Assembly (NCBI RefSeq): GCF_009811795.1
Contig: NZ_BLJE01000001.1
Span: 248,001-312,000 of the forward strand
Direction of reading: 5' to 3'
Source: Litoreibacter roseus
Lineage (GTDB): Bacteria > Pseudomonadota > Alphaproteobacteria > Rhodobacterales > Rhodobacteraceae
Length of the DNA: 64,000 nucleotides
The translations under genes were made by a program, and so were the position numbers. The notes below the pieces were generated by a model. That model was not told the DNA's origin. It saw only the letters and a program-made list of their open reading frames with translations, and made no database searches. The stretch's first letter is position 1; the number at the start of each line of letters is the position of its first letter. Shown here in pieces: positions 7,848 to 30,218 of the stretch.

Positions 7848-7904
7848 GTGGGGGCGCTCAGAGATCAACAAGCGGTCTTTGATTTATTCGGGCAAGATTT
7901 TGAT

Positions 7905-8606
7905 ATGTTTGATACAATTACAGCGGCCGGAGGTGCCTCCCAACCTCGTGAGGCAGAAGATCCGGTTTCAAGTCCGGGCAAAATCGTTCTCGTTTCTGAT
8001 CGCAACCCGATCCTCTCTGATGGCGTCGCAAAGTTGCTTTCCAAAGACAATGACGTGAAATGTGAGAAAGCTATGCTGTCAGCAGGTCCGCTTGGCAACT
8101 TTGTCGCAAAGCATAGACCGGACGCGGTAATCTTCGATCCCAGCCAAGACGGCGCGATGCCAGCTAGCGCAGCCAACACCGCTGCAGGCATTCGCTACAT
8201 TGCATATGTCGAGAACGCATCAGAGGAAGTCTTGCACGAATGCCTGAGCGCGGAGTTCAGCGCCGTCGTCGCAAAGACCTGTTCCATGTCCGATCTGGAA
8301 TCTGCGCTCTGCGCGGCCTTCACGGGCGGCGTGTTTCTTGATGACGTGTTCCGGTCCATGTTGATAAGCCGGGGAACCGCAACTTCAACGCCGCCAATTC
8401 CGGATGGATTGCAGGATTTGAGCGAGCGCGAAACAACCGTTCTTTTAAGCATCGCGCAAGGATTGAGCCTGAAGCAGATTGCATTCGACATGGGTCTCAG
8501 CGTGAAGACTGTGGATACCTACAAGGCCCGCGCGATGAAGAAGCTCGAGCTTTCTGATCGTGCAGCGATCTTTAGCTATGTCCAGCAGCACAATCTACTG
8601 ACTTAG
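7905..8606 (+). CDS. LuxR/NarL-type response regulator
   Basis: A 233-aa regulator if it starts at the ATG at 7905; a GTG at 7848 would add 19 residues, and neither has a strong ribosome-binding site. The N-terminal receiver-like domain begins IVLVSDRNPILSDGV and has a possible phosphoacceptor Asp in DAVIFDPSQDG. The C-terminal LuxR helix-turn-helix contains LSERETTVLLSIAQGLSLKQ and then SVKTVDTYKARAMKKLEL. The receiver is diverged: the acidic pair of strand 1 is reduced to one Asp, so phosphorylation is uncertain. It lies between the lyase-like gene and algD and is closed by its own terminator. Position suggests control of the alginate-type operon, in place of the Pseudomonas AlgU/AlgB/AlgR set. 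Confidence 0.8.
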   Translation: MFDTITAAGGASQPREAEDPVSSPGKIVLVSDRNPILSDGVAKLLSKDNDVKCEKAMLSAGPLGNFVAKHRPDAVIFDPSQDGAMPASAANTAAGIRYIAYVENASEEVLHECLSAEFSAVVAKTCSMSDLESALCAAFTGGVFLDDVFRSMLISRGTATSTPPIPDGLQDLSERETTVLLSIAQGLSLKQIAFDMGLSVKTVDTYKARAMKKLELSDRAAIFSYVQQHNLLT

Positions 8607-8804: not shown

Positions 8805-10124
8805 ATGGCCAAAATTAGTGTTTTCGGAATTGGGTATGTCGGGGTGGTTGCGGCCGCCTGTCTTGCAAAAGATGGTCACGATGTTCTCGCGGTCGATATT
8901 GATCAGGGAAAGATCGATGCGATCAATAAGGGTGAAAGCCCGATCGTCGAAAAAGGTCTGGATGAGCTTGTCGCCTCTGGCGTTTCTGCCGGCAAGTTGC
9001 GGGCAACCGGTGACATCGCGAAAGCCGTTGCCGAGACCGATGTCTCATTTGTGTGCGTTGGCACGCCAAGTGCAGAAGACGGATCTGTCGGCCTGACGGC
9101 TGTGACCGCGGTCTGCGAGAGCATCGGCAAGGCGCTTGCGGAAAAATCGACGTTTCACTCGGTCGTCATTCGCTCAACGACGGTGCCTGGCACCACGGAA
9201 AACACCTGCATCCCGGCATTGGAAAAGCATTCCGGCAAAGAAGCGGGCCGCGGGTTCGGGGTTGGGTATTACCCTGAGTTTCTGCGCGAAAGCACCGCGA
9301 TCGAGGACTACTACGATCCCGGCCTGATTGTTTTCGGTGCTCTGGAAAGCCGGACTGCAGCAATCCTGACAAGTCTCAACAAGGACCTCCCGTGCGAAAT
9401 CCATGTCGTAGATGTCCGCACGGCTGAAATGGTGAAATACACCTCGAACACATGGCGCGCGGTCAAGGTGACGTTTGCGAACGAGATCGGGAACATCGCC
9501 AAGGCCTGCGGCTTGGACGGCCAGACCGTCATGCGGATCCTGTGTTCGGACGACAAGATCAACATGTCGCCCTACTTCATGCGACCTGGCTTTGCTTTTG
9601 GGGGGTCCTGCCTTCCCAAGGACGTCCGCGCCCTAAGGCGATTGGCGCTGAACATCGACGTCAAGGCGCCGCTTCTTGAAGCTGTCCTGGAAGCGAATGA
9701 CGAGCAGATCGCTCGTGCAGAAAAGATGGTGGAAAGCTCCGGTGCTAAGACCGTCGGTATGGTTGGCATCAGCTTCAAGCCGGGAACCGACGATCTGAGG
9801 GAAAGTCCGCTGGCCGAGCTCGCCGCGCGCCTGATCAAATCCGGCGTCAATGTCAGTGTCTATGATCCCTATGTGCATACTGCCTATGCGGAAAATATGA
9901 GCGCCGCGGGTCGTGGCAACGATGTGGTGCCGGACCTGCAAGAGCGTCTCGTCGGAAAACTCGACGATCTGATCTCGGGATCCGAGGCGATCATCGTAGG
10001 TAACCTCTACAGCGATACGGTCGATCAGTTGACGGGCATGTCCGAAGACAAGCTGGTTGTCGATCTCGCCCGGCTGAAGCCAAGTCTGACCTCAAACGGT
10101 GCCTACGAAGGCATCTGCTGGTAA
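8805..10124 (+). CDS. algD: GDP-mannose 6-dehydrogenase
   Basis: A 439-aa enzyme that oxidises GDP-mannose twice to GDP-mannuronate, the committed precursor of alginate. The NAD-binding motif GIGYVGVVAAACLAKDGHDV lies at the N-terminus. The catalytic cysteine is in PGFAFGGSCLPKDVRAL (Cys269, close to Cys268 of Pseudomonas AlgD), and the nucleotide-binding C-terminal domain has VGMVGISFKPGTDDLRESPL. The start at 8805 was chosen over upstream ATGs because it has GGAAGGA 5 nt before it and gives the family length (about 436 aa). The exact match of the FMRPGFAFGGSCLPKD type points to GDP-mannose rather than UDP-glucose dehydrogenase. It is the first gene of a 12-gene operon. Confidence 0.93.
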   Translation: MAKISVFGIGYVGVVAAACLAKDGHDVLAVDIDQGKIDAINKGESPIVEKGLDELVASGVSAGKLRATGDIAKAVAETDVSFVCVGTPSAEDGSVGLTAVTAVCESIGKALAEKSTFHSVVIRSTTVPGTTENTCIPALEKHSGKEAGRGFGVGYYPEFLRESTAIEDYYDPGLIVFGALESRTAAILTSLNKDLPCEIHVVDVRTAEMVKYTSNTWRAVKVTFANEIGNIAKACGLDGQTVMRILCSDDKINMSPYFMRPGFAFGGSCLPKDVRALRRLALNIDVKAPLLEAVLEANDEQIARAEKMVESSGAKTVGMVGISFKPGTDDLRESPLAELAARLIKSGVNVSVYDPYVHTAYAENMSAAGRGNDVVPDLQERLVGKLDDLISGSEAIIVGNLYSDTVDQLTGMSEDKLVVDLARLKPSLTSNGAYEGICW

Positions 10125-10136
10125 GGGCAGGCGCGC

Positions 10137-11612
10137 GTGCATCTCCTGATGTCCCATATCGCCTACCTTTCGGTGATGGTGTTGCTGGCTCTGTCAGCGC
10201 CCGTCACCGCCTTGGGCGAGGCGAAAGGCGCTATCATCGTGCTGGGGGTGATCGGTGTCTGGCGCTACGGCTGGGCCGTTGTGAATATGAGCCGCGCCGT
10301 ATGGTTCCTGCTGGTTGCGTATCCCAAGCGGAAACGGCGCGCTCAGGTCGCCTATGCCTCGCAGCCCCTGAAGGCGCACGCGTTCTTCCTGACGACGACC
10401 TACGGCATCGATCCGGAAGTGACGCTTCCCGTCTACCAGTCGATCTTTCGTGCGGCCGCGCAGGCAGAAGGCGGGGCGACGATTGTCGCATCCGTCGTCA
10501 ACACGTCCGATGCGCGACTGATCAGATCGATCTTTGCCAATATGTCGATCGATATGACAGGCGTCCGGCTCGACGTGGATCAAATTCCGGGGACTGGCAA
10601 ACGGGACGCTTTGGCCAAGTCTCTTCAGTTGATCCTACGTCAATGTCCGACGCGACGTGACGTGGTGATCTTCGTGGATGGGGACAGCTGCGTTCCGGAA
10701 GACATGGTGGAACGCTCTGCACAGGTTTTCACCGATCCTGCCGTTGGTGCGCTGACAACCGACGAAGCGGTCGAGATCCCGCAACCAGGCCTCTTCCGCG
10801 ACTGGTTTGAGTTGCGGTTTACACAGCGGCAAATGATGATGTCCTCGATGGGTCTGTCGAACCGCGTTCTGACCCTGACCGGTCGAATGTCAGCATTTCG
10901 CGCTGATCTGGCGACGGATCCCAGCTTTATTCGGATGGTTCAGGACGACTACATTGACCACTGGCGTCTGGGCCGGGTTCAGTTCCTGACGGGCGACGAC
11001 AAGTCGACTTGGTTCTGGCTGATGAAAAACGGCTACGAAATGGCCTATCTGCCCGACGTTAAATCCCTGTCCATGGAAACGCAGCCGAAACCGGGTTTTT
11101 TCGAAAGCGCAATTGTGCTGATGGTGCGTTGGTTCGGAAACATGCTCCGCACGAATGGTCGCGCATTGGCACTGCCCGCACGCAAGATCGGCTACTTCAC
11201 ATGGTGGTCGATCCTTGATCAGCGTTTGTCGATCTGGACCACATTGGCAGGCCCCTTGGGCGTCTTGCTGACGGCACTTTTCGCAGAGCCGCTGATCCTG
11301 CCCGCCTACATCGCTTGGGTCATGGGGACGCGTTACGTGTTCTGCACGATCCTCTGCGCATTCCGTGGTCGCAGCTTCCCGATCACCTATCCATTCCTGC
11401 TTTACTTCGGCCAGATCGTAGGCGCGGCCGTGAAAAGCTTCGTCCTCTTCCGATTGGATCGCCAAAAATGGACCCGCCAAGCTGCAAGCGGTGGCCCCGG
11501 TTTGCCTGTTCCGCTGGGGCAGCGGATCCGCGCGGCGGGCTCTGCCTACCTTCATGTCCTAACACTCGGATGGCTCGTTCTTGCGGTCGTCTACATCACC
11601 CAGCTCGTTTGA
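10137..11612 (+). CDS. alg8: alginate polymerase glycosyltransferase Alg8
   Basis: A 491-aa GT2-family membrane enzyme that polymerises mannuronate from GDP-mannuronate and, with Alg44, moves the chain across the inner membrane. Two transmembrane segments flank the N-terminus. The catalytic domain has VDGDS (near residue 180), ALTTDEAVEI, the Alg8-specific LSNRVLTLTGRMSAFRAD, the base motif QDDYIDHWRLGR and TGDDKSTWFWLMKNGYEMAY. The stretch MVRWFGNMLRTNGRALALP and three to four C-terminal membrane segments follow. Length matches Pseudomonas Alg8 (about 494). The start is GTG at 10137, 12 nt after algD; an ATG at 10149 is possible. Confidence 0.93.
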   Translation: MHLLMSHIAYLSVMVLLALSAPVTALGEAKGAIIVLGVIGVWRYGWAVVNMSRAVWFLLVAYPKRKRRAQVAYASQPLKAHAFFLTTTYGIDPEVTLPVYQSIFRAAAQAEGGATIVASVVNTSDARLIRSIFANMSIDMTGVRLDVDQIPGTGKRDALAKSLQLILRQCPTRRDVVIFVDGDSCVPEDMVERSAQVFTDPAVGALTTDEAVEIPQPGLFRDWFELRFTQRQMMMSSMGLSNRVLTLTGRMSAFRADLATDPSFIRMVQDDYIDHWRLGRVQFLTGDDKSTWFWLMKNGYEMAYLPDVKSLSMETQPKPGFFESAIVLMVRWFGNMLRTNGRALALPARKIGYFTWWSILDQRLSIWTTLAGPLGVLLTALFAEPLILPAYIAWVMGTRYVFCTILCAFRGRSFPITYPFLLYFGQIVGAAVKSFVLFRLDRQKWTRQAASGGPGLPVPLGQRIRAAGSAYLHVLTLGWLVLAVVYITQLV

Positions 11613-11640
11613 TTTGAAAGAAAAGAGGGACCTCACCCCG

Positions 11641-12780
11641 ATGCAAAATCAAGATCATCAACTCGAAGCGCTGCGCAAAAGCACGGATGCCCCCCAAACC
11701 TTCATGATGGACACGCCCATGGGCAATGAGCATCCGTTGCTGCCCATTCCGTTTATCGTGATGCTTGCCGAACGGCGTCTGGAAGGCAAAGGCCTTTCGC
11801 TGATCGGTGGGACGGCATCCGGCCTCGTTGATCCCTCGATGGATGGTAAACAGGAGCTTGCGACGCTGATCTTCAGCTTCGATGGATTCCGCATTGTTCT
11901 GTCCGCTGTTGTTAACATTCGTTTGAACGACAACAAGAGCCTGGGGCTGGTGGAGCTTGAGTTCGCTGATCCGGTCGGACCTCAATTGCCGCAGCTGCGC
12001 TATATCATTAATGCCTTTATCGCAGGCGATATCGTGGGGCTGGGGCCGTTATTGTCTGTTCCGTCGGTCGAAAAGAAGAAGAGCGGCGGTCGCGCGAAAT
12101 CCCTCAGCTTCACGGATCGTCTTGGTCAAGTGGTTCGCAAGGCCGGTGTCGCCGCTTTGGTCTTGGGCCTTCTAGGTGCGGTCGCGCTCACAGTTCAAAA
12201 TCGGGTTCTGACGTTGGACGAAATCCGCCCGGCCGTGGTCACCATTGAGGGTGAGGCTTTGCGATCGCCCACCGCCGGTCAGATCAGCTTTATCAACGCT
12301 CAGGCCGAGGAAGGCGATGTCGCCTTCGCGATCCTGTCCAACTCCGGCGCACAGCTCAGCGTTATGATGCCCTGTAACTGCGACATCACCAATGTCGCGT
12401 TCCGGGAAGGCTCAACTTTGTTGGCGGGCGAAGAAGTCATGACCTTGGTTGAACCGGGCGCTGGTGTCCACGTCGATGCGGTCATGAGCTACGAGGGCAT
12501 CAACGCGGCCCTCAAAGGTAGCGAGATCGAGATGGTCTTTGCGGATGGTCGTGTGGTGTCCGCCACCATCAGTCCGACCTCTTTCAGTGACATCATGATG
12601 GTACGGCCGTCCGAATGGACCCCCTTGACCTTGGTGCCTGAGGACAGCGTCGCGGAAGCCGATATCGGCCAAATGACCCGCGTCAGGCTGCGCCAGCCAA
12701 TGCCGGTCATCGGCGGCTTGCTTGCCTGGTTCGGGGATGGCGCATCGCTGCAGGCTCAGGCGGAAGCTGCGGCAGAATGA
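11641..12780 (+). CDS. alg44: Alg44-like copolymerase with degenerate PilZ domain
   Basis: A 379-aa inner-membrane protein that should work with Alg8. The N-terminal cytoplasmic part (about residues 20-125) has a PilZ-like pattern ending RYIINAFIAGDIVGLGPLLS, which parallels Alg44. One membrane segment follows (VAALVLGLLGAVALTV), then a periplasmic HlyD-like domain with LRSPTAGQISFI and the conserved PCNCDI pair of cysteines. Against Pseudomonas Alg44, the RxxxR motif is NEHPL here and DxSxxG reads GGTASG, so the c-di-GMP ligands appear missing. The start at 11641 has GAGGGA 10 nt upstream; an earlier in-frame start lies inside alg8. Identity rests on position and architecture. Confidence 0.82.
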   Translation: MQNQDHQLEALRKSTDAPQTFMMDTPMGNEHPLLPIPFIVMLAERRLEGKGLSLIGGTASGLVDPSMDGKQELATLIFSFDGFRIVLSAVVNIRLNDNKSLGLVELEFADPVGPQLPQLRYIINAFIAGDIVGLGPLLSVPSVEKKKSGGRAKSLSFTDRLGQVVRKAGVAALVLGLLGAVALTVQNRVLTLDEIRPAVVTIEGEALRSPTAGQISFINAQAEEGDVAFAILSNSGAQLSVMMPCNCDITNVAFREGSTLLAGEEVMTLVEPGAGVHVDAVMSYEGINAALKGSEIEMVFADGRVVSATISPTSFSDIMMVRPSEWTPLTLVPEDSVAEADIGQMTRVRLRQPMPVIGGLLAWFGDGASLQAQAEAAAE

Positions 12781-12874
12781 AAACCTGAACCGGAAGACTT
12801 GTAAAAAAGGGCATTTGGCCGAGCTCGCGGCCATTGCCCGGAAATTGGAATATCTCTTTGTTGGGGAAGTAAAA

Positions 12875-14275
12875 ATGTCCAAGATCTATCCGATCATTCT
12901 ATGCGGTGGCAGCGGCTCACGGCTGTGGCCCATGTCTCGCTCTGGTGAACCGAAGCAATTTCAATCTGTAACCGGTGTAGACGATCTGTCGTTGTTCCAG
13001 GCAACCGTTCAGCGACACAGATCCGCTAAGTTTGCGGACCCTGTGATTGTGACGAACCTCAAGCACACCCGGCGTGTGGCGCAACAACTGCAGGAAATCC
13101 AGTGCAAGGGAACGATCATCAGTGAACCGGTTGGACGCAATACCGGCCCGGCCGTCTTAGCCGCAGCACTTACGATCCTGAAAAGCGATCCGGATGCGAT
13201 CATGCTGGTTTTGCCATCCGATCATGTGATCCAGGGCGACGTGAACACCTCGGTGGTGGAGATGACACAGGCTGCAATTGACGGGCGTATCATCACGTTC
13301 GGGATCAAGCCCAGATACCCCGAGCCTGGTTTCGGCTACATCACGGATGGCGGGCGCTTCGTGAACTACAGCGGCCTTCACCGCGTTGATGCATTTATCG
13401 AGAAACCGCCACTCTCAGTCGCTCAGTCGCTGGTGTCTTTGGGCAAGGCCTATTGGGCTTCTGGCATCAGTATGTTCAGTGCGGCGACGATCGTCGAAGA
13501 ATACCGCAAGTACGATCCTGCAACCACAACGGCAGTTTCGCTGGCGGTTGAGGATGCGATCGAGAACGACTACGGCCCGATCCTCGAAAAAGTGGCGTTC
13601 AGCGCCGCCAAGGATTTGCCAACCGAAAGCGCTGTCTTCGAAAAGAGCGCCGCCGTCGCGTTGACACCTCTGGATATCACGTGGAGCGACGTGGGTTCAT
13701 GGTCTGCGGTCCATGACGTTGTCGCGAAATCTGACGATGGAAATGTTCTGCACGGCGATGTCCACGTCGTTGATACGACGAATTCTCTTATTCGATCTGA
13801 AGATCGTTTGGTCACTGTGGTGGGGCTGTCAAACATCATCGTGGTGGATACGCCGGATGCTGTCCTCGTGACGTCCCACGAAAAATGCCAAGACATCAAG
13901 ACGCTTGTGAACAACCTCAAGGTCGAAGACCGCCGCGAAACGGTTGAGCATGCAAGGCGCACGTACTCGTGGGGGGAAAGCCGCCGGATTGGGGCGACGC
14001 AGTCCTGTGAGATGACCATCGTGCGCTTGAAGTCCGGCTTCAGCATAGATCTGGACGCTGTGCAGGGCACGCAAATCATCAATGTGTCAGGTAAGTTCGC
14101 CATTAACGGATCGGCCGCGTCGCGCGATCTTGCCGTCGGTGACCAATTCACCAGCGAAAGCGTCGGGAACATGCGTTTGAGCAACAGTGGTGATGACATG
14201 GGGGAGGCGTTGATCGTTCGCTATCGTACAGATCAGTCTGCGACCGCGTCAGGCCAGATAGCTGTTGCGAGCTGA
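12875..14275 (+). CDS. algA: mannose-1-phosphate guanylyltransferase (AlgA-type, isomerase domain degenerate)
   Basis: A 466-aa protein. The N-terminal nucleotidyltransferase domain makes GDP-mannose from GTP and mannose-1-phosphate. It has ILCGGSGSRLWPMSRSGEPK at residues 5-24, PSDHVI, EPGFGYI and the FIEKP signature. The C-terminal cupin (about 360-460) matches type II phosphomannose isomerase only in outline: YSWGESRRIGATQSCEMTIV followed by LKSGFSIDL. The metal-binding run QMHHHRAEHW of AlgA is DLDAVQGTQI here, and the later active-site segment is also not conserved. It probably supplies GDP-mannose but not fructose-6-phosphate isomerisation. The start at 12875 has GGGGAAG just upstream. 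It lies 95 bp after alg44. Confidence 0.88.
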   Translation: MSKIYPIILCGGSGSRLWPMSRSGEPKQFQSVTGVDDLSLFQATVQRHRSAKFADPVIVTNLKHTRRVAQQLQEIQCKGTIISEPVGRNTGPAVLAAALTILKSDPDAIMLVLPSDHVIQGDVNTSVVEMTQAAIDGRIITFGIKPRYPEPGFGYITDGGRFVNYSGLHRVDAFIEKPPLSVAQSLVSLGKAYWASGISMFSAATIVEEYRKYDPATTTAVSLAVEDAIENDYGPILEKVAFSAAKDLPTESAVFEKSAAVALTPLDITWSDVGSWSAVHDVVAKSDDGNVLHGDVHVVDTTNSLIRSEDRLVTVVGLSNIIVVDTPDAVLVTSHEKCQDIKTLVNNLKVEDRRETVEHARRTYSWGESRRIGATQSCEMTIVRLKSGFSIDLDAVQGTQIINVSGKFAINGSAASRDLAVGDQFTSESVGNMRLSNSGDDMGEALIVRYRTDQSATASGQIAVAS

Positions 14276-14281
14276 TCCAAG

Positions 14282-15625
14282 ATGACCCTTCGCTGCCTCA
14301 CTCTAGTCTGCGCGACTGTGTTGTCATTGGCCGGAACGCTTGCATCTGCACAGCAGTCCGATCAATCAAGTTCGTTGTCGCTTGTGGATATGCAGGTTGT
14401 GATGGCGCAATTGGCACTTCGGGCAGGGGCGAATGGGCATCTGACACTTGCACGCGCGCAGACCGAAGACGAGCCGAAGGCGATTGTCTTGTCGAACGGG
14501 ACGTTCCGGCTTTCAGACATCACCCCAGACACGTTGCCGAATGCCGGACTTGGCCTCTCCTCCCAGCATCTGACCAGTCCGCGGCCCATCGTGGTATGGT
14601 CCAACGCCACACTGATCATGGAAGACGGGGACCGGTTGGAACTGCGCCGCGACACAGGTGCGTTCCTGTTGAATTTCGGCAGAGTGATTGCAGATGGCGC
14701 TCAGATCGGCGGTTCGCAACTGCCGAACCTGAAGGATCAGACCTTCAGGCCGTTCCTTTTGAGCGCAGGCAGTGGCAGCGTCGAAATCCGAAACTCCCGA
14801 CTGGAGTTTCTTGGCTTCGGGCGTGCCGGCAATTTCAGCGGCGTTTCCGTTCTCAACCGTGGGCTCTATCCGGCGCTTGGCCCAAGCCTGATCGAGGACA
14901 GCACGTTCCACAGCGTTCAGTCTGCCAGCTTTGACAGCACCAAAGGCACTGTCATTCGCAACAACAATTTCTCGGGAAGCGCGGCCACGTCTTTGCGGCT
15001 GATCGGCGCGGAAGGCGCTGAGGTCACGGGCAACACCATCTCTACCGCGAAAAACCATGGGTTGCGCATCACCGCAGGCAGTCGCCAGATCCTGATCAAG
15101 GATAATACGTTCCGAAATATTGCAGGCGTTGGCATACTTGCGGACCGCGGTGTCGAAAATCTGGTGGTTGCAGGGAACCACATCGATCAGTCAGCGAAGG
15201 GCGGCGTGTCGTTTGTACGGGTCACCTGCGCGATCTTGTCCGACAACCACGTTGCGCTTGTCGGACAAAAGGGCCTCTCCGTCCGCGAAAGTCAGGACGT
15301 GCACGTTCTCAACAACCAGCTTTTCGGAAATCGTGGCGCCGGCATTTATGTCGGGGATCAGGCACCGGACGCGCTGACGGTCCTGCAAGGCAATGTCTTT
15401 GAGAAGAATGGCAGGGGACTCTCAGGGGCCGCCGCCGAGCATCTTGTTCTCAAGGGCAACGATTTTTCCAAGCAGTTCCCAAGGCTTCTGGGGGGCGACC
15501 TGATGTCGGTCATTCATGTGATTGCGAGGGATTTGACGGGCGATGCCGTGATGTCGATCTCACCTCGGAAGACGGATCTGAATGTCGCGATGCCAAAACC
15601 CTGCGATGCACGGGCGGAGATCTGA
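14282..15625 (+). CDS. algG: AlgG-like periplasmic beta-helix protein without the epimerase catalytic motif
   Basis: A 447-aa protein with a signal peptide (cleavage after LASAQ) and a right-handed parallel beta-helix of NosD/CASH-type repeats from about residue 160 to 400, recognised by recurring xxxNxF and GNxI turns. Pseudomonas AlgG (about 540 aa) is the mannuronan C5-epimerase and also shields the polymer in the periplasm. The catalytic segment FDPHDRSHGLII aligns with FDSTKGTVI at residues 217-225 here, so Asp-Pro-His-Asp is replaced by Asp-Ser-Thr-Lys. No other DPHD occurs. It may be a scaffold or binding protein rather than an active epimerase. It lies 6 nt after algA and 2 nt before algI. 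Confidence 0.7.
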   Translation: MTLRCLTLVCATVLSLAGTLASAQQSDQSSSLSLVDMQVVMAQLALRAGANGHLTLARAQTEDEPKAIVLSNGTFRLSDITPDTLPNAGLGLSSQHLTSPRPIVVWSNATLIMEDGDRLELRRDTGAFLLNFGRVIADGAQIGGSQLPNLKDQTFRPFLLSAGSGSVEIRNSRLEFLGFGRAGNFSGVSVLNRGLYPALGPSLIEDSTFHSVQSASFDSTKGTVIRNNNFSGSAATSLRLIGAEGAEVTGNTISTAKNHGLRITAGSRQILIKDNTFRNIAGVGILADRGVENLVVAGNHIDQSAKGGVSFVRVTCAILSDNHVALVGQKGLSVRESQDVHVLNNQLFGNRGAGIYVGDQAPDALTVLQGNVFEKNGRGLSGAAAEHLVLKGNDFSKQFPRLLGGDLMSVIHVIARDLTGDAVMSISPRKTDLNVAMPKPCDARAEI

Positions 15626-15627
15626 CA

Positions 15628-17076: not shown

Positions 17077-17087
17077 TGGAGCCGTTG

Positions 17088-18170
17088 ATGTCCCGCCTCA
17101 TCACAGCGTTTAAACTGATCCTTCCGATTTGCTTCTTTGCCTATGCGGCGGTTGGAAATTTCGTGATCTTCACCGAAGACGGGATCGATCTGTCCGGAAA
17201 GGAGATCATGCGCGGTGAGGCGACCGGGCAGATTGATACGATTTACCGCCGAGATCTGCCCCACCGGGAACCGTCCATCGGCCTCATCGGTGCCGCACGC
17301 TACGCCGTCTTGGGCGAAGGCCGCGAGGGCGTCATCGCGGGGCAGGGCAACTGGCTTTTCAGTGCGGAAGAGCTCCGGGCCTACGGGCCAGACAGTACAG
17401 TCTTGGAAGAAACGGTCGCCAAGATGTCGGAGATCCGCGATCGGCTTGCGGAAGCGGGCTCCGACCTTGTCATCGTGCCGCTGCCCGCAAAGATCGACAT
17501 TGACCGGTCCTTTGCGCCAACGAGTGATGCGCCCAACGTGAGCGCGGCACAATATCAAGACTTTCTCGCAGCGCTGTCAGACGCAGGCTTGTCCACAGTT
17601 GATGTCCGGTCCGAGTTGCTTGACGCACAAAAAACCCGCCCTGCATTTTTACAAACGGACACCCATTGGCATCCCGAAACAGCGGCACTTGTTGCGTCGA
17701 TTGTGGCTGGCTCGAAGACTGTCCCACTTGGGGATGCGAAGTTCGAACGGCAGGCCCAAAAGGACGTGTCTTTTACTGGTGATCTCGTGTCGTTTGTCAC
17801 GAGCGAAAATCTCGCCCCGACGGTGGGTCTGCGCCCGGAAACGGTCCAGCCTTACCTTGCCATCGAGGCGGGCGGCGGCGTTGATTTGTTCGGATCTTCC
17901 AGTGCCATTGATGTCGCTCTTATCGGGACAAGTTATAGCGCGAACGAGAATTGGAGTTTCGCGGAAGCGCTCAAGCTGGCGTTGAAGCGGGATGTGCTCA
18001 ATCTTGCCCAAGAGGGGCAGGGACCGGTCACACCGATGATCGACTACCTCGCGGACGGTGCCGCTCGGTTGGACCAACCACCAGCGCTGATCATCTGGGA
18101 ATTTCCCGTACGCTACCTCACCGACCCGAAGCTTTGGGAAAAATCTGAAAAGGAGGAGGGCAATGTATAA
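17088..18170 (+). CDS. algJ: alginate O-acetyltransferase AlgJ
   Basis: A 360-aa periplasmic SGNH-hydrolase-like acetyltransferase anchored by one N-terminal membrane segment (FKLILPICFFAYAAVGNFVI). The catalytic set is present: Asp191 and His193 in QTDTHWHP and Ser282 in LIGTSYS, close to D190, H192 and S288 of Pseudomonas AlgJ. AGQGNWLF near residue 88 is also typical. The start at 17088 was preferred because GGAG lies 6 nt upstream; an ATG at 17076 overlaps the algI stop and lacks a ribosome-binding site. It precedes the lipoprotein gene with an 8-nt overlap. Confidence 0.9.
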   Translation: MSRLITAFKLILPICFFAYAAVGNFVIFTEDGIDLSGKEIMRGEATGQIDTIYRRDLPHREPSIGLIGAARYAVLGEGREGVIAGQGNWLFSAEELRAYGPDSTVLEETVAKMSEIRDRLAEAGSDLVIVPLPAKIDIDRSFAPTSDAPNVSAAQYQDFLAALSDAGLSTVDVRSELLDAQKTRPAFLQTDTHWHPETAALVASIVAGSKTVPLGDAKFERQAQKDVSFTGDLVSFVTSENLAPTVGLRPETVQPYLAIEAGGGVDLFGSSSAIDVALIGTSYSANENWSFAEALKLALKRDVLNLAQEGQGPVTPMIDYLADGAARLDQPPALIIWEFPVRYLTDPKLWEKSEKEEGNV

Positions 18171-18918
18171 TCTGTCCTACCCAATCAAAATTGCATGTCT
18201 TCTGATGATTGCTGCAAGCGTTTCGGCCTGCGCGCCGCCAACCAAGAAAACGATTGTTTACGTCAAAGCGCCGTCAACAGCGAACACCGTAGAGAAGCCG
18301 CAGAGAACTCAGGCCGAGCTTTATGAACGCGAGGTCAAGCGCCGCCTTTCGGCTGGTCAGTCGGTTTCGCCGGAAGATATTCGTCCTCTGGCGGACAGTG
18401 GCGATGGCTTCGCGGCCTTGCGTCTGGCTCAATCCCTTGAGCAAAGCGGTGCGTCCGCCAGCGATGTGGCGCATTACTACGCAATTGCCGCGGCCGCTGG
18501 AAAGGGTGGCGCGACCTATGGTCTGGTTCGGCAACTCCGCCGTCCCGGGATTGAGAACGCCGGCAAAGACCGCCTTACGTGGATCGAACAGACCACCAAC
18601 GGACTGGCGAGGAAGGGCGACCCAGTTGCCGCCGCGTTCATGGCCGAAGCGTACAGGTCAGGCAAACCGTTTGGCGAGAACCGCGACAAGTCTTTGTCTC
18701 TTCAAACCCAGCTTGCCGAAGGCGGCAACGCGAATGCCGCGCTCGATGCGATCACAACTCTTTTGTCAGAACCTGATCCGTCCCGTGAAGAGTTGGAGCA
18801 GGCGTTGTCATTGATTGATGTCGCGTTGGAAAACGGAAACCTCTCGACAAAGACAACCGCACAGAACCTGCGCCCCCGCGTCGTCGCAGCGCTGTCTGAA
18901 GAGCCAGTGGAGGGATGA
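18163..18918 (+). CDS. Sel1-like-repeat lipoprotein (small AlgK-like protein)
   Basis: A 251-aa predicted lipoprotein. The signal peptide ends in a lipobox VSAC, with the acylated cysteine at about residue 23. The mature part is alpha-helical with diverged Sel1/TPR-like repeats, for example DGFAALRLAQSLEQSGASA, HYYAIAAAAGKGGATYGLV and GDPVAAAFMAEAYRSGKPFG. In Pseudomonas the Sel1-repeat lipoprotein AlgK binds AlgX and localises the AlgE porin, but AlgK is about 475 aa. This protein may be a shortened AlgK counterpart, anchored to the outer membrane. It has a very strong ribosome-binding site (AGGAGGAGGG at 18151-18160). The gene lies between algJ and algX. Confidence 0.75.
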   Translation: MYNLSYPIKIACLLMIAASVSACAPPTKKTIVYVKAPSTANTVEKPQRTQAELYEREVKRRLSAGQSVSPEDIRPLADSGDGFAALRLAQSLEQSGASASDVAHYYAIAAAAGKGGATYGLVRQLRRPGIENAGKDRLTWIEQTTNGLARKGDPVAAAFMAEAYRSGKPFGENRDKSLSLQTQLAEGGNANAALDAITTLLSEPDPSREELEQALSLIDVALENGNLSTKTTAQNLRPRVVAALSEEPVEG

Positions 18919-18920
18919 CC

Positions 18921-20255
18921 ATGGTGTCTCGCAAATTCCGAACTCTCATCTCGATTGCTGCGCTGTGCGGCGGTGTCGCGACGTCTGCCATGGCCGACGA
19001 TGATCCTGACGCTTTCCAGTGTGCGGCTCTGAACGATCATCCGGTGACGCCCGTTCTTGAGGGGCATAACGGTGTTTTCTTCCGGGTGTTTCTCGATCTT
19101 CGGATGAACCACCCCTTTACGGACCAGACGGTCGACCTTTTGGGTCAACTTGCTGATGCGTTACGGGAAAACGGAACCGAACTCGTCTTTTTGCCGGTCC
19201 CCACCAAAAGCCTCGTTTTGAACGATGATCTTCCAAAGCAGGCAAGCCTCTATGGTTACGACATTGAAACGGCCACGCAGGTCTATCGCAATATTATCGA
19301 GCGGCTGCGCGACCGGGGTGTGGTTGCCATCGATGGGCAAGAGGCGATGCAGGACGGCAATCCCGACGCGCTGCCGTTCTTTCAGGCGGACTTTCACTGG
19401 ACTGCCGAAGGCGCCAGACGTGCTGCGCAAGGTGTGGCCGCTGAGATGGACCGTTTGAACTTGTTCGCTGGGATGGAACGTGGCGAGTACGAAACCACCC
19501 CGCTTCAGGAAGAGATCGCATTCTCCGGGCTGCGCCGTCAGATCCAGAAAAAATGCAAGGTCGCGCTGCCCGAACCGGTGACCATGACCTATCAAACGGA
19601 AGCCGTAGGTGGATCCGATGCCGACGCGGCAGTCGATCTTTTCGGGACCGCATCTTCTATTGATCTCGCGTTGGTCGGAACATCGTTCTCGGATATGGAA
19701 ATCAGCCATTTTGAGGGCTGGCTGAAACAGTATACCGGTCTCGAGGTGGTCAACTACGCGATCACAGGTGGCAACCAATTCGGCGCGATGCTGTCCTATC
19801 TGACGTCGCAGGATTTCCGGGAGAACCGCCCAAAATTCTTGGTCTGGGAAAACCCGCTTTACAACAATCTGATGCAGAACGGCGACCAGCCTTTACGCGA
19901 GATGGTTGCCGCCGCAGGCGAGACCTGTACGCTTGAGCTGCCGTCCGAATTGTCTGACCGAAATACGCTGACTGCCGATCTGAGCGGCATCGCCTTAGAA
20001 GCCTCCGACGTCATTCATGCCTCCGCTGCGGGCGAGGGCAGTCGGGAGGTCGAATTTCGATTTGAGACATCATCGGGCGCCGTGCGTCACAAGGCGTTGC
20101 GTCGCGAAAACCGCTTACGTGCAACAGGTAACTATTACATGCCGATCAATTCCCTCGGCACCGTCGATTTCACGAAACTCAGCGTGACCTTCGACCGAAC
20201 TCTTCCCAAAACCGCAAGCCTGCGCCTATGTCGCAGCCAAAAGGAGAACCTCTGA
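18921..20255 (+). CDS. algX: alginate acetyltransferase AlgX
   Basis: A 444-aa secreted protein with a signal peptide (cleavage after TSAMA). The SGNH-like domain has NGVFFRVFLDLR, VFLPVPTKSLVLND, Asp157 and His159 in QADFHWTAEG and Ser255 in LVGTSFSD, matching the Asp/His/Ser set of Pseudomonas AlgX (about 474 aa). The C-terminal part (about 325-440) fits the AlgX carbohydrate-binding module. AlgX acetylates mannuronate residues of the exported chain. The start at 18921 has GGAGGG 6 nt upstream; the ATG at 18915 directly abuts that site. Its start overlaps the end of the lipoprotein gene and its end precedes algF by 2 nt. Confidence 0.88.
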   Translation: MVSRKFRTLISIAALCGGVATSAMADDDPDAFQCAALNDHPVTPVLEGHNGVFFRVFLDLRMNHPFTDQTVDLLGQLADALRENGTELVFLPVPTKSLVLNDDLPKQASLYGYDIETATQVYRNIIERLRDRGVVAIDGQEAMQDGNPDALPFFQADFHWTAEGARRAAQGVAAEMDRLNLFAGMERGEYETTPLQEEIAFSGLRRQIQKKCKVALPEPVTMTYQTEAVGGSDADAAVDLFGTASSIDLALVGTSFSDMEISHFEGWLKQYTGLEVVNYAITGGNQFGAMLSYLTSQDFRENRPKFLVWENPLYNNLMQNGDQPLREMVAAAGETCTLELPSELSDRNTLTADLSGIALEASDVIHASAAGEGSREVEFRFETSSGAVRHKALRRENRLRATGNYYMPINSLGTVDFTKLSVTFDRTLPKTASLRLCRSQKENL

Positions 20256-20257
20256 CT

Positions 20258-20884
20258 ATGTTTGCCAACCCTCTCAAAATAGCAGCCCTCGCGGTTTTGC
20301 TGAGCCCTATTTCTGCTTTGGCTCAGGATGGCTCGCTGTATGAGCCCGCGCCGGATCCGTCCATGAGCTACGTGCGGGTCATCGATCCAGGTACCGAGAA
20401 TGTTGCGGTCGGTTCGAAACGTCTCGACGATGTGGCCGATGGTATCTCGCCCTACGTGGGCGTTGTGGCCGGCGACGTGCCCGTGATTACCGACGCGGTT
20501 GATATGACACTGACAGTGGAGGCGGCGACGTACTACACTGTGTTGGTCAGCGATGACGGCGCGACGCAAATCATAACTGACGCGATCACCAACAGTCCTG
20601 CTAAGGCCGATCTTGCCTTCTATAACCTGTCGGACCTCGGTAGCGCGGATCTGTTTGTCCCACGGGCCGATGCAATGGCTGTTGAAGGGGTTGTGCCCAC
20701 GAATGCCGCATCCGTCGCCTTGAACGCACCGCTCGAACTGGATTTCGAAGTCCGTGAAGGTAAGGCCGTGATGGCCACCGTCGAAACCGTCAGCCTCAAA
20801 CGCAAATCAGGTGTCTCCATTGTCGTAACCGGCAGTGCAGGCAGCTACGAGGCGATCTCAATCGATAACAGCTACATCTACTGA
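20258..20884 (+). CDS. algF: alginate O-acetylation accessory protein AlgF
   Basis: A 208-aa periplasmic protein with a signal peptide ending SALAQ. It begins with the AlgF-like segment DGSLYEPAPDPSMSYVRVI and continues through two beta-rich domains (for example YYTVLVSDDGATQIITDAI and AKADLAFYNLSDLGSADLFV). In Pseudomonas, AlgF is needed for acetylation together with AlgI, AlgJ and AlgX. The start at 20258 was chosen for size and the AAGGAGAA site upstream; an earlier in-frame ATG lies inside algX. Length is near the family value of about 216. Confidence 0.87.
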   Translation: MFANPLKIAALAVLLSPISALAQDGSLYEPAPDPSMSYVRVIDPGTENVAVGSKRLDDVADGISPYVGVVAGDVPVITDAVDMTLTVEAATYYTVLVSDDGATQIITDAITNSPAKADLAFYNLSDLGSADLFVPRADAMAVEGVVPTNAASVALNAPLELDFEVREGKAVMATVETVSLKRKSGVSIVVTGSAGSYEAISIDNSYIY

Positions 20885-20922
20885 ACCCGTCGTCACGACC
20901 GGTCCAAGAAGAGGAAACGCCC

Positions 20923-23679
20923 ATGTCCAGTCTCGCTTTCAAAACAGGACGCGTCACGCTTGTCTCGGCATTGATCGCGGGGCTGGCAACGGGTGTCACA
21001 GCGGATCCCATCAAGCTGGAATTTATGCCACCCGAGTTGGACGTGGAAAACATCTGCTCCCCTCGGGAACCGGACGGCGCTCTGCTGGAGAAATGGTCGG
21101 GCTGGACCGGCGGTGATCTGCCCGAGACCAACCCAAGCCTTCTGAAGCGCGATCTGCAACGATTGGAACAGATCGATCCGGTCGCGTGGTACGACACCAT
21201 TGAGACGGCGATCTCGCTCTTCCCGAATATTGACGAGAAATACACCGAGAACCACGCTTTGGTGGACCGGATAGATCTGATGGTCGCAGCCGGACGTGAT
21301 GACAAGCTGATGACCCGCCGTCTGGTGCCTCAGCTCATGCTGAATGCGGAAACACTTTCGCCGCGCTTTCAGAACATTCTGGGCAATTACCTGATTGAGG
21401 GCGTCGGGATTGAGCCGGATGAGCGGCGCGGGCTGCAATTGATCAAAGCCAGCGCCTACGCCGGAAACGCCGACGCGCTTTTGCATCTCGCAAAGCTGGA
21501 TATTGAAGGTGCACCCGCAACGGGCTGGGATATTCCACCGGATCTCGCGATCACGATGGCCCTCGGTGCTTTGGTGGGCGAATTAAATCCGACGATCTGT
21601 GACCGGATTTGGCGCATCGCGCGGGAATTCCACAACGGTGATCTTGTGGTACGCGATGTGTCAACAGCTGAGGCGTGGTTCCGGTTCGCCGCTGATCTGG
21701 GCGATGCCAACGCGGCATGGGAAGTCACGGAATACCACATGGAAAGCGAAGGCTTTGCCAAAGACAATGACATTCTCATCGAATACCTGACGAAAGCGGC
21801 GGATGGTGGTCTTCCTTACGCGAAGCTCGAACTCGGTAGCCTCTACGAAGAAGGCGCGTTGGTCGAAAAGAACTTCGACGAGTCACTCAGGCTCTATCGC
21901 GAAGCGGCCGCATTCGACAACAGATCCGGCCTGCTGCGTCTGGCAAGGTTCCTGGAAGAGAACGTGGGGACGCGCCCTGAGCTAGAAGAAGAGCGCCTAG
22001 AGGTTCTGACCAAACTGATCAATCTGCCCGACGCACCAGGCTGGGCTTTTACAAGACTTGCAAACAACGTGCTGAAAACAAAGGGGCGATGGGCTGGCGA
22101 CACCGAGGCGCGCGCTCTTTTGGAGAAAGCCGTCGCGCGGGATGATCCGGACGCCTTTGAGCGTTTGGGATTGCTGCTGATGAGAGATCGCCGCGACGCG
22201 GATGCGTTCAACCGCGGCATTGATCTGATGGTGCGTGCGGTGTCTCACCACGGCTCGATCAACTCAATGGACAAGCTTCGTGGGGCGCATATGTGCGTGG
22301 CCAACAAAGAGCCGATGCTGGAGCAGGCAAATTATTGGCTTCATATGGATCAATCCTCAGGGACAGCGACGCTGGAATTCACCGCAGAACAGATGCAGGC
22401 CCAGCCTTGGCAAGACGATCCGATCATGCTGGCGACGATGCAATCACAGGCCCTTTATGGTCGGCCCAAGTCTTTGGCAAACTACATGGCGATGCTCGAC
22501 AGTTCTGAAACGGCCAGCCCGGAAGAGCGTCAGTTCTGGTCGGAATACGCCGGTGCCTATGACCGCGTTCTAAAGGCCCGTGCCAGTATCGCCTATGAGC
22601 TTGCAGCGACCGACAAGGACCGCCAATCGGCGCTGAACCTTATGCGACGCGCCGTGCAGGAAGGTGATCCGGATGCGGCGGTGGCTTTGGCGGAAATCCT
22701 GCTTGAGTTGGAACAGTCCCCCGAGCATGTTCGCGTCGAAGCGTCGGATCTGTTGCTGCCGATCGCGGCGACCGGCGACGGTGACGCCATGAACCTGCTC
22801 TTGCTTCTTGCGGGTGGCGGCGTTGAGGCGCAGCAGAGTATCTATACTCAATTCGCCGAGGCCATCGAGGTGCGTGGCGACTTTGAAGCCCTTCTCTTTT
22901 CGCTTCCATTCGTCGATGGGCAAAAGCGGATCGATTATCTGGACCGCGCAATCTCGGTTATGATTTGCGACTTCAAGTCGACCATGCGGGTTGCCGCGGT
23001 TCTGAATTCGATCGGGGAAGGGGAGGCGTCTCGCCGCTGGCTCGATACCGCATCCCACCTAACCGAAGGCGTGCCATGGACGCTTGTTAAATTGGGCGAT
23101 GGATATGTGAACATGGTGGGTGATGCGGCAACGCCAAAAGCGATAGAGCGGTACTCTCAGGCGCTGGAGGCAGGCTCCGAGGTCGGCGGCCTGCGGCTCT
23201 GGTCCTTTTTTGGTGATCCGAAATCTGAACTCTATAGCGAAGAAAAAACTGTCGAGTTGCTGACCACTCTCATCAAGATGGCTGACATCGAAAGCCTGTC
23301 ATCCGTCTTGGGCAAGATGCGCGGCAGCAGCGATGAGATTCAGGCAGCGGTCGGTGCGCGCGTTGATGTGCGCGAGAAATATCTGGTCGCGGCAGAAGCG
23401 GGCGATCCGCGGGCGATGCGTGGATACGCACAACTTACACGCGATGGGGCGACAAGCGCTGACGAGTTGTCCGAGTCCGTTGCATGGATGACCAAAGCAG
23501 CGGAACATGATGATATCCCCGCAATGGTTGAACTATCGCAGATCTACGCATTCGGCCTTGGTGTCGAGCCCTCTCCAGAAGATGCAATCGCGTGGCTTGA
23601 AAAAGCTGCCGCCGCCGGAAGTGAACCCGCGGCAGGATACCTCGATCTTCTGAAACTTCAGCGTAATCTGACCCAATGA
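20923..23679 (+). CDS. large secreted Sel1-repeat protein (AlgK-like)
   Basis: A 918-aa protein with a signal peptide (cleavage near GVTAD) but no lipobox cysteine, so probably soluble in the periplasm. Most of it is Sel1-like/TPR repeats: clear copies are NADALLHLAKLDIEGAPATG, LPYAKLELGSLYEEGALVEK, GDPDAAVALAEILLELE, GDPRAMRGYAQLTRDGATSA and IPAMVELSQIYAFGLGVEPS. The scaffold is about twice the size of Pseudomonas AlgK. It could link the acetylation proteins to an outer-membrane exporter that is not encoded here. It lies 38 bp after algF and overlaps algL by 4 nt. The alginate role is inferred from the operon; the repeat architecture is clear. Confidence 0.75.
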   Translation: MSSLAFKTGRVTLVSALIAGLATGVTADPIKLEFMPPELDVENICSPREPDGALLEKWSGWTGGDLPETNPSLLKRDLQRLEQIDPVAWYDTIETAISLFPNIDEKYTENHALVDRIDLMVAAGRDDKLMTRRLVPQLMLNAETLSPRFQNILGNYLIEGVGIEPDERRGLQLIKASAYAGNADALLHLAKLDIEGAPATGWDIPPDLAITMALGALVGELNPTICDRIWRIAREFHNGDLVVRDVSTAEAWFRFAADLGDANAAWEVTEYHMESEGFAKDNDILIEYLTKAADGGLPYAKLELGSLYEEGALVEKNFDESLRLYREAAAFDNRSGLLRLARFLEENVGTRPELEEERLEVLTKLINLPDAPGWAFTRLANNVLKTKGRWAGDTEARALLEKAVARDDPDAFERLGLLLMRDRRDADAFNRGIDLMVRAVSHHGSINSMDKLRGAHMCVANKEPMLEQANYWLHMDQSSGTATLEFTAEQMQAQPWQDDPIMLATMQSQALYGRPKSLANYMAMLDSSETASPEERQFWSEYAGAYDRVLKARASIAYELAATDKDRQSALNLMRRAVQEGDPDAAVALAEILLELEQSPEHVRVEASDLLLPIAATGDGDAMNLLLLLAGGGVEAQQSIYTQFAEAIEVRGDFEALLFSLPFVDGQKRIDYLDRAISVMICDFKSTMRVAAVLNSIGEGEASRRWLDTASHLTEGVPWTLVKLGDGYVNMVGDAATPKAIERYSQALEAGSEVGGLRLWSFFGDPKSELYSEEKTVELLTTLIKMADIESLSSVLGKMRGSSDEIQAAVGARVDVREKYLVAAEAGDPRAMRGYAQLTRDGATSADELSESVAWMTKAAEHDDIPAMVELSQIYAFGLGVEPSPEDAIAWLEKAAAAGSEPAAGYLDLLKLQRNLTQ

Positions 23680-24707
23680 GGATGTCCCGGCTGCCCATCG
23701 TTCTGGGCGCACTGTCTGTCATTGGCTGCACCATAGGACCAGCCAATGCGCAATGTGGACTGTCGAATGCCCCTGTTGTTACCTTGGATATCCCAAGCAG
23801 GTATACTGCTGAAAGCGAGAGCCGGTCCGACATTGATGCGGAGCTAAACGCGCTTGTGAACAAGCGGCTCAAGCCAGTAGATGTGTTCGTGCAGGACCTG
23901 GCGCGTGAGGCCAACAAGTCGCTGGTCGAGGATGATCCCGAGGAGGCCGCTGATCACGCACGCTGCGTTATCGATGCGTTGCACCGATGGGCTGAGGCGG
24001 ATGCCCTGTCCACGCTCGCGTCACTCAATGCAAAAATGGCGGTCGGGTCTCGTTTGGGTGGCATGGCAATGTCGCTCTGGCAGTTGGAGATACCGGACGA
24101 CCGCGCTGACGAGGTTAAAACCATCGGAACTTGGATGTCAGGCATCGCACGGGACCAAATGCAGTTCTGGGCGACTGATGCGCCCAATGGGGCGCGGCAA
24201 GGGAATTTGCGTGCGTGGGCTGCACTTGGCGTCGGTGCCGTCGGCGCTGTTTCTGGCGATGACGCGTTTCTGAGTTGGTCCAAGAATTCCGTAGGCTTCA
24301 TTCTGAGCACAGCTGCCCCAGACGGAAGCATCCCGCAGGAGATGCGGCGCGCGCAGTGGGCGCTGCACTATCAGTTGCACGCGGTTTCACCGCTTGTTGT
24401 TACGACGGCGCTTCTGAAAACACAGGATGTCCATCTGTCAGAGGGACAAATGGGGGCATTGAAGCGCGCTGTTGACTACGCGATCTCCGACCTCGACACC
24501 GGCGATGTCACCCGCGAAAAGACAGGGCACGTGCAGAAATATTTCGATGGAACTGAAGAGTTGCGGTCTTTCGAATTGGCGTGGGCAGATGCATTTTTGT
24601 GGCTTGCGGATGCACCCGAAGTGGCCGATTTCGTGGAGCCCTATCGACCCCTCGGAAACTCTAAATTGGGCGGACGTCAGGTGGATATCTGGTCCGCTAG
24701 GCGCTGA
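23676..24707 (+). CDS. algL: AlgL-like (PL5 fold) periplasmic protein with altered active site
   Basis: A 343-aa protein with a signal peptide (cleavage near ANAQC) and the alpha/alpha-toroid pattern of PL5 alginate lyases. In Pseudomonas AlgL the segment NNHSYWAAW holds Asn201, His202 and Trp205, and Arg249 and Tyr256 complete the site. Here the equivalent segment is GNLRAWAAL: Asn177 and Trp181 are kept but His202 is Leu178. Arg225 and Tyr232 in MRRAQWALHY keep the correct spacing of 7. Loss of the charge-neutralising/base histidine makes normal lyase activity doubtful. It may retain polymer binding. It is the last gene of the operon. Confidence 0.78.
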   Translation: MRMSRLPIVLGALSVIGCTIGPANAQCGLSNAPVVTLDIPSRYTAESESRSDIDAELNALVNKRLKPVDVFVQDLAREANKSLVEDDPEEAADHARCVIDALHRWAEADALSTLASLNAKMAVGSRLGGMAMSLWQLEIPDDRADEVKTIGTWMSGIARDQMQFWATDAPNGARQGNLRAWAALGVGAVGAVSGDDAFLSWSKNSVGFILSTAAPDGSIPQEMRRAQWALHYQLHAVSPLVVTTALLKTQDVHLSEGQMGALKRAVDYAISDLDTGDVTREKTGHVQKYFDGTEELRSFELAWADAFLWLADAPEVADFVEPYRPLGNSKLGGRQVDIWSARR

Positions 24708-30214: not shown

Positions 30215-30218
30215 ATCA

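Follow-up and report, generated by a model that had tools for sequence, protein, structure and literature searches.

What does an alginate-type operon make, and how is it controlled, when its proteins are kept and several of their key residues are not? This question is raised by a locus in Litoreibacter roseus, analysed here within a stretch of 64,000 nucleotides (contig NZ_BLJE01000001.1, positions 248,001 to 312,000; hereafter the window). At 8805-24707 on the plus strand of the window, twelve consecutive open reading frames (ORFs), all intact and with short gaps or overlaps between neighbours, are arranged as algD, alg8, alg44, algA, an algG-like gene, algI, algJ, a small lipoprotein-like gene, algX, algF, a large Sel1 gene and an algL-like gene. 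Judged from its sequence, this run is an alginate-type synthase operon shared by a widespread clade of Alphaproteobacteria, and its product is best predicted to be an O-acetylated mannuronate polymer. Known key residues are missing in AlgG, AlgL, Alg44 and the isomerase half of AlgA, on which a preliminary description of the window had made no claim. The main interest of the locus is this clade-wide loss of regulatory and processing sites in proteins that are retained. The operon probably encodes a polymannuronate machine that is blind to cyclic dimeric guanosine monophosphate (c-di-GMP) and does not epimerise its product, with AlgG, and in one subclade also AlgX, serving as scaffold. The basis of this reading is homology, synteny, residue patterns, the predicted fold of Alg44 and rough signs of purifying selection, from which we infer the polymer, activities, regulation and export.

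The operon and its distribution

The twelve-gene alginate-type run had been proposed from the letters alone, and was confirmed by ORFs together with Pfam and NCBIfam profiles and by the recurrence of its order in other loci. Profile searches matched the GDP/UDP-sugar dehydrogenase, glycosyltransferase GT2, guanylyltransferase, beta-helix, MBOAT, ALGX (two genes), AlgF, Sel1 and PL5 families; the Pfam search returned no match for Alg44 or for the small lipoprotein. The preliminary description had also called the operon complete and rearranged. Completeness was not borne out, as no AlgE match was found in the genome and AlgK is represented only by remote Sel1/Sel1-like repeat (SLR) proteins. The arrangement is no peculiarity of this genome; the synteny survey of Rhodobacterales and Hyphomicrobiales found the same order, algD-8-44-A-G-[I-J]-slrL-X-[F]-SLR-L, to be usual in the clade, and since it recurs in loci of both orders it is not due to chance.

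A scan of GTDB contigs yielded 250 stretches with Alg8 relatives, distant ones possibly among them, and the best 80 of the 250 were analysed. Eleven loci sharing the Alg8 end of another were dropped before all counts. The counted loci comprised 66 full-type loci (with algI and algJ; the window included), 18 reduced-type loci (no algI, no algF) and 9 incomplete loci; L071, L100, L101 and ten canonical Pseudomonas-type loci were also compared. Many loci end before algL, at the 10-kb flank or at a contig end. Among 394 genomes of the family, 59 had an Alg8 match (E up to 1e-20), with 30 close (at least 54% identity in the best piece, the genome of the window included) and 29 at 40% identity or less. 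Named carriers included Loktanella, Yoonia, Tropicimonas, Maritimibacter, Rhizobium, Agrobacterium, Roseibium, Cohaesibacter and Devosia. The plasmid collection gave 14 records at E up to 1e-20, nine from Rhizobium, two from Loktanella and one each from Salipiger, Tateyamaria and Jannaschia.

The Alg8 tree was a quick tree without bootstrap and with a long-branch warning at the outgroup join; in it the clade formed one branch of 93 rows (Shimodaira-Hasegawa-like approximate likelihood-ratio test, SH-aLRT, 100). The window adjoined Tropicimonas and other Roseobacteraceae, which agrees with the roseobacter origin proposed earlier. The 18 reduced loci formed a single clade (SH-aLRT 100) nested in the full-type loci, with the incomplete locus L165 inside it.

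Some loci departed from the usual arrangement. L043, L170 and L180 were without algD and algA; in L032 the AlgX and SLR ORFs were short and algL was not found. In the compact locus L154:8561-17075, from a Cognatishimia metagenome assembly, algX directly followed alg8, and alg44, algA, algG, algI and algJ were not found, which may reflect a real deletion or an assembly fault. An apparent swap of alg8 and alg44 in L038 and L136 was rejected as an effect of over-long ORF starts, L038 showing the usual order, and a swap of algI and algJ in L159 and L161 probably has the same cause.

Regulatory, processing and precursor sites

An Alg8-type GT2 gene adjoins an Alg44 co-polymerase gene, as in alginate systems. 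The alg8 gene (10137..11612; this and all features below lie on the plus strand) was assigned as the polymerase by its GT2 Pfam match and the motifs DGDS, TTDE and TGDDKSTW. TGDDKSTW was present in 66/66 full-type and 18/18 reduced-type loci, and DGD, TTDE and TGDDKS(T/S)W were kept in all aligned full-type, reduced-type and canonical sequences, TTDE reading TTNE in the canonical ones. The alg44 gene (11641..12780) encodes a PilZ domain and a membrane-fusion-type periplasmic domain. Searches of PDB sequences with Alg44 and Alg8 yielded nothing useful, and Alg44 was identified because of its position, sequence similarity and fold. Its AlphaFold2 model (predicted local distance difference test score, pLDDT, 86.6) was matched by Foldseek to the Alg44 PilZ structures 4rt0, 4rt1 and 4xrn, with template modelling (TM) scores of 0.72-0.79 on the target, and to BesA and MexA adaptors too; the PilZ fold is predicted for its N-terminal domain.

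The c-di-GMP-binding RxxxR position of Alg44 (11725..11739), located by alignment with canonical loci, reads N-E-H-P-L in the window. The PilZ signature (RxxxR and DxSxxG), counted in proteins of at least 300 amino acids (aa), was present in 0/64 full-type, 0/18 reduced-type and 10/10 canonical loci, and a looser pattern agreed. A bare RxxxR string occurred within the first 70 residues of 12 of the 64 full-type and 5 of the 18 reduced-type proteins; in no case was the full signature present, and Arg-Arg stood at the aligned columns in 0/63 full-type and 0/18 reduced-type sequences. Alg8 and Alg44 would polymerise and translocate the GDP-mannuronate product of AlgA and AlgD. Alg44 is predicted to keep the PilZ fold but lacks the c-di-GMP site, so that synthesis should not be gated by c-di-GMP at this protein. 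Control has probably moved to transcription, via the NarL/LuxR-type response regulator upstream (7848..8606; GerE 1.2e-14), the likely operon regulator. A single regulator had been described before the operon, and the gene was indeed found there; in 49 of 84 loci, the window among them and every one full-type, its ORF cluster adjoins the operon.

The algG-like gene (14282..15625) encodes a beta-helix protein without the epimerase motif, which scored 53.6 bits against the AlgG model NF038177 (cut-off 700) and 2.7e-10 against 4ozz. Its DPHD position, located by alignment (14996..15007), reads R-L-I-G. DPHD was found in 0/66 full-type, 0/18 reduced-type and 10/10 canonical AlgG proteins, and the looser string D.HD in one of the 18 reduced-type proteins. 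Thirty-nine columns were conserved at 90% in 23 sequences, none of them at the former DPHD positions, which vary freely. According to PMC4444821, the histidine of DPHD is the probable proton-abstracting base, and Pseudomonas mutants without AlgK, AlgX or AlgG are reported to produce oligomers instead of alginate; structural roles therefore exist. AlgG has probably been retained here for a structural, non-catalytic role in the periplasmic conduit, in which case the polymer should be an acetylated polymannuronate lacking AlgG-made guluronate. Outside the class, the AlgG of an AlgE-bearing locus (L101:8339-9895) reads DAAD, not DPHD, perhaps through an independent loss of the motif.

The algL-like gene (23676..24707; Alginate_lyase 9.3e-25) encodes a PL5 protein with a remodelled active site, in which N-L-R-A-W (24204..24218, by alignment) replaces the N-H-S-Y-W part of NNHSYW. 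With flanks cut, algL was examinable in just 11 of the 66 full-type loci; NNH was present in 0/11 full-type, 0/18 reduced-type and 10/10 canonical proteins, and NLRAW in 11/11 full-type and 18/18 reduced-type proteins. The clade shares the PL5 family and the equivalents of Arg249, Tyr256 and Trp205 with the PL5 alginate lyase AlgL (4ozv, 7sa8), whereas His202 is replaced by Leu, Lys66 by Arg and Tyr259 mostly by His, and an Arg adjoins the lost His. The Arg249 and Tyr256 equivalents were present in 27/27 aligned full-type and reduced-type proteins, and Lys66 was Arg in the same 27/27. With its binding and acid/base positions kept (Lys66 as Arg, Arg249, Tyr256) and without His202, AlgL is probably a weakened, re-specialised or binding-only form.

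AlgG and AlgL might alternatively still be active, with AlgL using the Arg of NLRAW for His202 and AlgG another site. The presence of NLRAW in 29/29 full-type and reduced-type proteins speaks for a site under constraint rather than in decay, and the Arg249 and Tyr256 equivalents are retained. Moreover, according to PMC8829089 the Pseudomonas aeruginosa AlgL H202A mutant has no detectable activity in vitro, yet grows like the wild type, unlike R249 and Y256 mutants. We nevertheless regard this explanation as unlikely, given that AlgL of the incomplete locus L154 reads NLAAW, without the Arg, and that the former DPHD positions of AlgG show no such constraint.

Precursor supply was analysed for AlgD and AlgA. 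The algD gene (8805..10124) encodes a GDP-mannose 6-dehydrogenase that matched the GDP-mannose dehydrogenase 1mfz over its full length at 439 bits, the best UDP-glucose dehydrogenase reaching 245 bits; GGSCLPKD is kept in the window and in all aligned full-type, reduced-type and canonical sequences. AlgD is a GDP-mannose dehydrogenase orthologue. The algA gene (12875..14275) covers positions 1-389 of 467 of TIGR01479, the bifunctional model that includes mannose-1-phosphate guanylyltransferase, at 364 bits, slightly below the cut-off of 372.95, and is the sole match to this model in its genome. It represents the guanylyltransferase half, and the C-terminal isomerase motif was found in 0/63 full-type, 0/18 reduced-type and 10/10 canonical proteins. 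AlgA and AlgD would make GDP-mannuronate, although with the isomerase motif lost the predicted role of AlgA is only half supported. Genome G183 carries both a reduced locus (L042) and the full-type locus L043, which is without algD and algA, and the isolate CCMM004 shows the same pairing (L171, L180). In each case the second locus probably depends on the first for its precursor, as would be consistent with a shared GDP-mannuronate pool.

The losses were compared with related loci. All four sites (Alg44, AlgG, AlgL, AlgA) are present in the ten Pseudomonas-type loci. In other alphaproteobacterial loci, with Alg8 40-51% identical, the sites persist wherever the genes can be recognised clearly: L071, L100, L187 and L189 have DPHD and NNH, and the PilZ pattern of Alg44 is present in L071, L100 and 7 of 8 Alg44-like matches among 12 extra alphaproteobacterial loci.

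An explanation of similar standing to that of active AlgG and AlgL, and one that we likewise doubt, is that the product is another GDP-hexuronate polymer or a mixed one, the lost epimerase, lyase and c-di-GMP sites reflecting a change of substrate. These three sites are altered together, the window Alg8 is just ~42% identical to two Pseudomonas-type Alg8 proteins, and the lyase-like genes upstream vary by lineage, with a PL14-type polysaccharide lyase with CBM2 in the window (5710..7512; PF21294 2.3e-36, CBM_2 1.7e-9) and PF14099 (two tested) in reduced loci. Against a change of substrate stand the assignment of AlgD as a GDP-mannose dehydrogenase with its motif conserved, the retention in AlgL of Arg249, Tyr256 and, as Arg, Lys66, and the PL14 domain itself, whose best solved relative is the alginate lyase 5gmt (1.9e-12).

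Acetylation, export and neighbouring genes

The O-acetylation set is present in the window with its catalytic motifs. It comprises algI (15628..17076), an MBOAT acyltransferase (2e-31) with LWHGANW; algJ (17076..18170), an SGNH acetyltransferase (ALGX Pfam 1.6e-60) with DTHW and GTSY kept; algX (18915..20255), the terminal acetyltransferase (ALGX Pfam 5.8e-51) with D159, H161 and S257 kept; and algF (20228..20884), with an AlgF Pfam score of 44.6 bits, over the cut-off. Full-type AlgJ proteins kept DTHW in 65/66 and G(T/S)SYS in 66/66. AlgI, AlgJ, AlgX and AlgF would O-acetylate the polymer in the periplasm. The preliminary description had stated that the precursor, polymerase and acetylation parts kept their catalytic residues, which stood for the motifs of AlgD, Alg8, AlgI, AlgJ and AlgX; its simplest prediction, an acetylated mannuronate-based polymer, is supported by the precursor, polymerase and acetylation motifs.

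The reduced-type loci are without algI, algJ and algF. The D, H and S columns of AlgX were intact in 62/62 aligned full-type and 0/17 aligned reduced-type proteins; in the latter, H was replaced by Arg in 16 and Gln in 1, and S by Glu in 12, Asp in 4 and Lys in 1. A GTS string occurred in 3 of 18 reduced-type AlgX proteins, and the aligned column was Ser in 0/17. AlgX probably serves as a scaffold in this subclade.

Export would have to proceed without a detectable AlgE. The AlgE porin family PF13372 had no match in the genome of the window. It was searched in 20 of the 30 close operon-bearing genomes, with 19 giving no match and only G279 positive (two matches of 50.6 and 37.3 bits, cut-off 25.2, on contigs other than that of the operon), against 4/4 controls outside the class. 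Two AlgK-like candidates are encoded in the operon. The small lipoprotein-like gene slrL (18163..18918), labelled SLR in the preliminary description, has a lipobox-like VSAC and a position conserved in most loci. The large Sel1/SLR solenoid gene (20923..23679; Sel1 6.2e-26), a candidate AlgK-like scaffold, encodes a 918-aa protein whose AlphaFold2 model is nearly all helix (pLDDT 76.9); a beta-barrel in this protein was rejected, the model being an alpha solenoid with no barrel. Foldseek matched the model to Sel1/TPR solenoids at low TM-scores, with AlgK absent among the 50 matches listed, and the profile of the protein reached AlgK 7ula at 2.1e-5 as one of 23 matches, mostly Sel1 proteins. 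The AlgK model NF038194 gave 38.6 bits (cut-off 700). The SLR proteins may connect the conduit with a channel in the outer membrane whose gene lies outside the operon. One Wza-type outer-membrane polysaccharide export (OPX) protein is encoded elsewhere in the genome.

These results also bear on an ordinary Pseudomonas-like system, activated by c-di-GMP, epimerised and exported through AlgE. Ten of the twelve genes are homologous to those of such a system; however, the c-di-GMP, epimerase and isomerase motifs are absent, and the AlgE family was found, off-locus, in just one of the 20 operon-bearing genomes. This explanation is very improbable.

The PL14-CBM2 protein is a possible polymer-processing enzyme outside the conserved core; as a core partner of the clade it was rejected, with no match in 39 loci. 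PL14 matches were seen near distant Alg8-like genes in 2 of the 12 extra alphaproteobacterial loci (L188, L198). A lyase-like ORF cluster lies upstream in 12 of the 18 reduced loci (L040, L049 and 10 more), on the opposite strand in 11 of the 12. PF14099 was matched in both tested members of this cluster and at the same place on the Tateyamaria plasmid locus L073. In L073:1-8878, annotated type II secretion genes adjoin the reduced-type operon of this 54-kb Tateyamaria omphalii plasmid. An RTX-repeat protein is encoded beside 17 full-type loci (L036, L102, L110, L178 and 13 more), upstream in 16, and is possibly a secreted lyase or other polymer enzyme. RTX proteins were rejected as extracellular AlgE-type epimerases replacing AlgG, with DPHD in 0/17 and only RTX repeats matched by Pfam (two tested); no RTX protein of this cluster was found in the window. 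Eleven full-type loci (L133 and 10 more) have a ParA/VirC1-like ATPase cluster upstream of the operon (one member tested).

A second Alg8-like gene, 28-40% identical to the window Alg8, occurs in 29 family genomes without a close Alg8 and in at least 3 with one. In L055, L058 and L061 it lies near a 469-478 aa protein (HlyD-type in one tested), an AlgA-like protein, an AlgD-like protein (~44-46% identical to Pseudomonas-type AlgD), a large RTX protein and a small response-regulator-like gene; L055 and L061 also have a hybrid histidine kinase. Such loci possibly make another GDP-uronate polymer. In the window, ~300 bases downstream of the operon, 25012-30914 holds genes which we take to resemble a urea-type ABC transporter cluster. 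Promoter-like sites were about as frequent as expected by chance (6 found, 6.9 expected) and terminator-like sites slightly over chance (24 found, 18.4 expected, standard deviation 4.2); a weak terminator-like site after algL (24711-24723) was not used as evidence.

Weight of the evidence and known systems

Substitution rates were calculated by the Nei-Gojobori method for 13 close pairs. Wherever the ratio of non-synonymous to synonymous rates (dN/dS) of a gene was finite, it was <0.6 (AlgG 0.06-0.47; AlgX 0.05-0.22; AlgL 0.19 and 0.24, from the only two pairs that gave one), although dS was saturated in several pairs and the ratios are rough. By these rough signs, all genes look to be under purifying selection. 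AlgG had the highest rounded dN, alone or tied, in 9 of 13 pairs, a pattern to be expected if a protein is freed from catalysis and not from structure. We rejected as hardly credible the view that the operon is a decaying copy without function: several known motifs are absent and two relatives (L032, L154) seem damaged or shortened, but the window holds twelve intact genes in an order conserved across two orders, with low dN/dS and new conserved residues.

Besides the saturation of dS, several points weigh against a c-di-GMP-blind, non-epimerising polymannuronate machine. Of the isomerases that might supply mannose-6-phosphate, the type I phosphomannose isomerase families (PF01238, PF20511) and PF07221 had no match in the genome of the window. 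Searches of the same genome yielded no identified outer-membrane channel for the operon. Since AlgL H202A grows like the wild type, loss of His202 is not proof of a loss of function. The change in AlgX and the loss of algI, algJ and algF count as one event because the reduced subclade is monophyletic. Among the extra alphaproteobacterial loci, an Alg44-like match in L197 is without the PilZ pattern, and low-score matches lack NNH in L188, L191 and L193 (AlgL-like) and DPHD in L191 (AlgG-like).

A polymannuronate machine of this kind is still the reading that we favour. A wider joint proposal, in which enzymes were turned into a conduit, is more tentative, and we put it somewhat short of even. 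It combines a c-di-GMP-blind synthase, a dead epimerase, a lyase with a new conserved active-site motif (NLRAW) and a new activity, replacement of Ser and His in AlgX in one branch, and AlgE-free export by an undescribed outer-membrane route. Within this same proposal and held with the same reserve, the change in AlgX, mostly to an acidic residue and Arg, would have come after the genes for acetyl supply were lost.

Work with Pseudomonas mutants suggests that AlgG and AlgX, besides being enzymes, are needed as structural parts of the periplasmic alginate conduit; what AlgL does is disputed. The clade, with known catalytic residues gone and the proteins kept, is a natural experiment for telling enzymatic from scaffolding functions among the alginate proteins. 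It brings internal controls, namely, the related alphaproteobacterial loci that keep the sites and the AlgX triad that is kept where the acetylation genes are present. The favoured reading predicts a bacterial polymannuronate without AlgG-made guluronate, synthesis free of c-di-GMP at Alg44, and an export channel still to be found.

A literature search covering alginate, alphaproteobacteria and the carrier genera found no account of the clade or of its site losses among the titles and opening lines of abstracts that it listed. The atypical operons of Bundalovic-Torma et al. 2020 (PMC7112194) resemble it in losses of algKE or modification genes and in rearrangement; the available part of that paper treats lost loci, rearrangement and divergence of alg44/algX clusters, not lost active sites, and its operons may overlap with the clade. 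Closer at hand, L071 (a Rhizobium sullae plasmid), L100, L187 and L189 share homologues of algD, alg8, algG and algL, and L071 and L187 also those of algX and algF. Unlike the clade of the window, L071, L100 and L189 keep the PilZ pattern (L187 had no Alg44 match) and have an AlgG of 1196-1256 aa. In L071:9275-11035, a PL7 alginate lyase with RTX repeats adjoins the Rhizobium sullae locus, whose AlgG has 1248 aa.

The Pseudomonas/Azotobacter operon (algD-8-44-K-E-G-X-L-I-J-F-A) differs from the operon of the window in gene order, in the presence of AlgE, and in a recognisable AlgK where the window has two other proteins. The window has an AlgA without the isomerase motif and lost or replaced site residues in AlgG, AlgL and Alg44. 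The two operons share ten homologous genes, the motifs of AlgD, Alg8, AlgI, AlgJ and AlgX, and the PilZ fold of Alg44.

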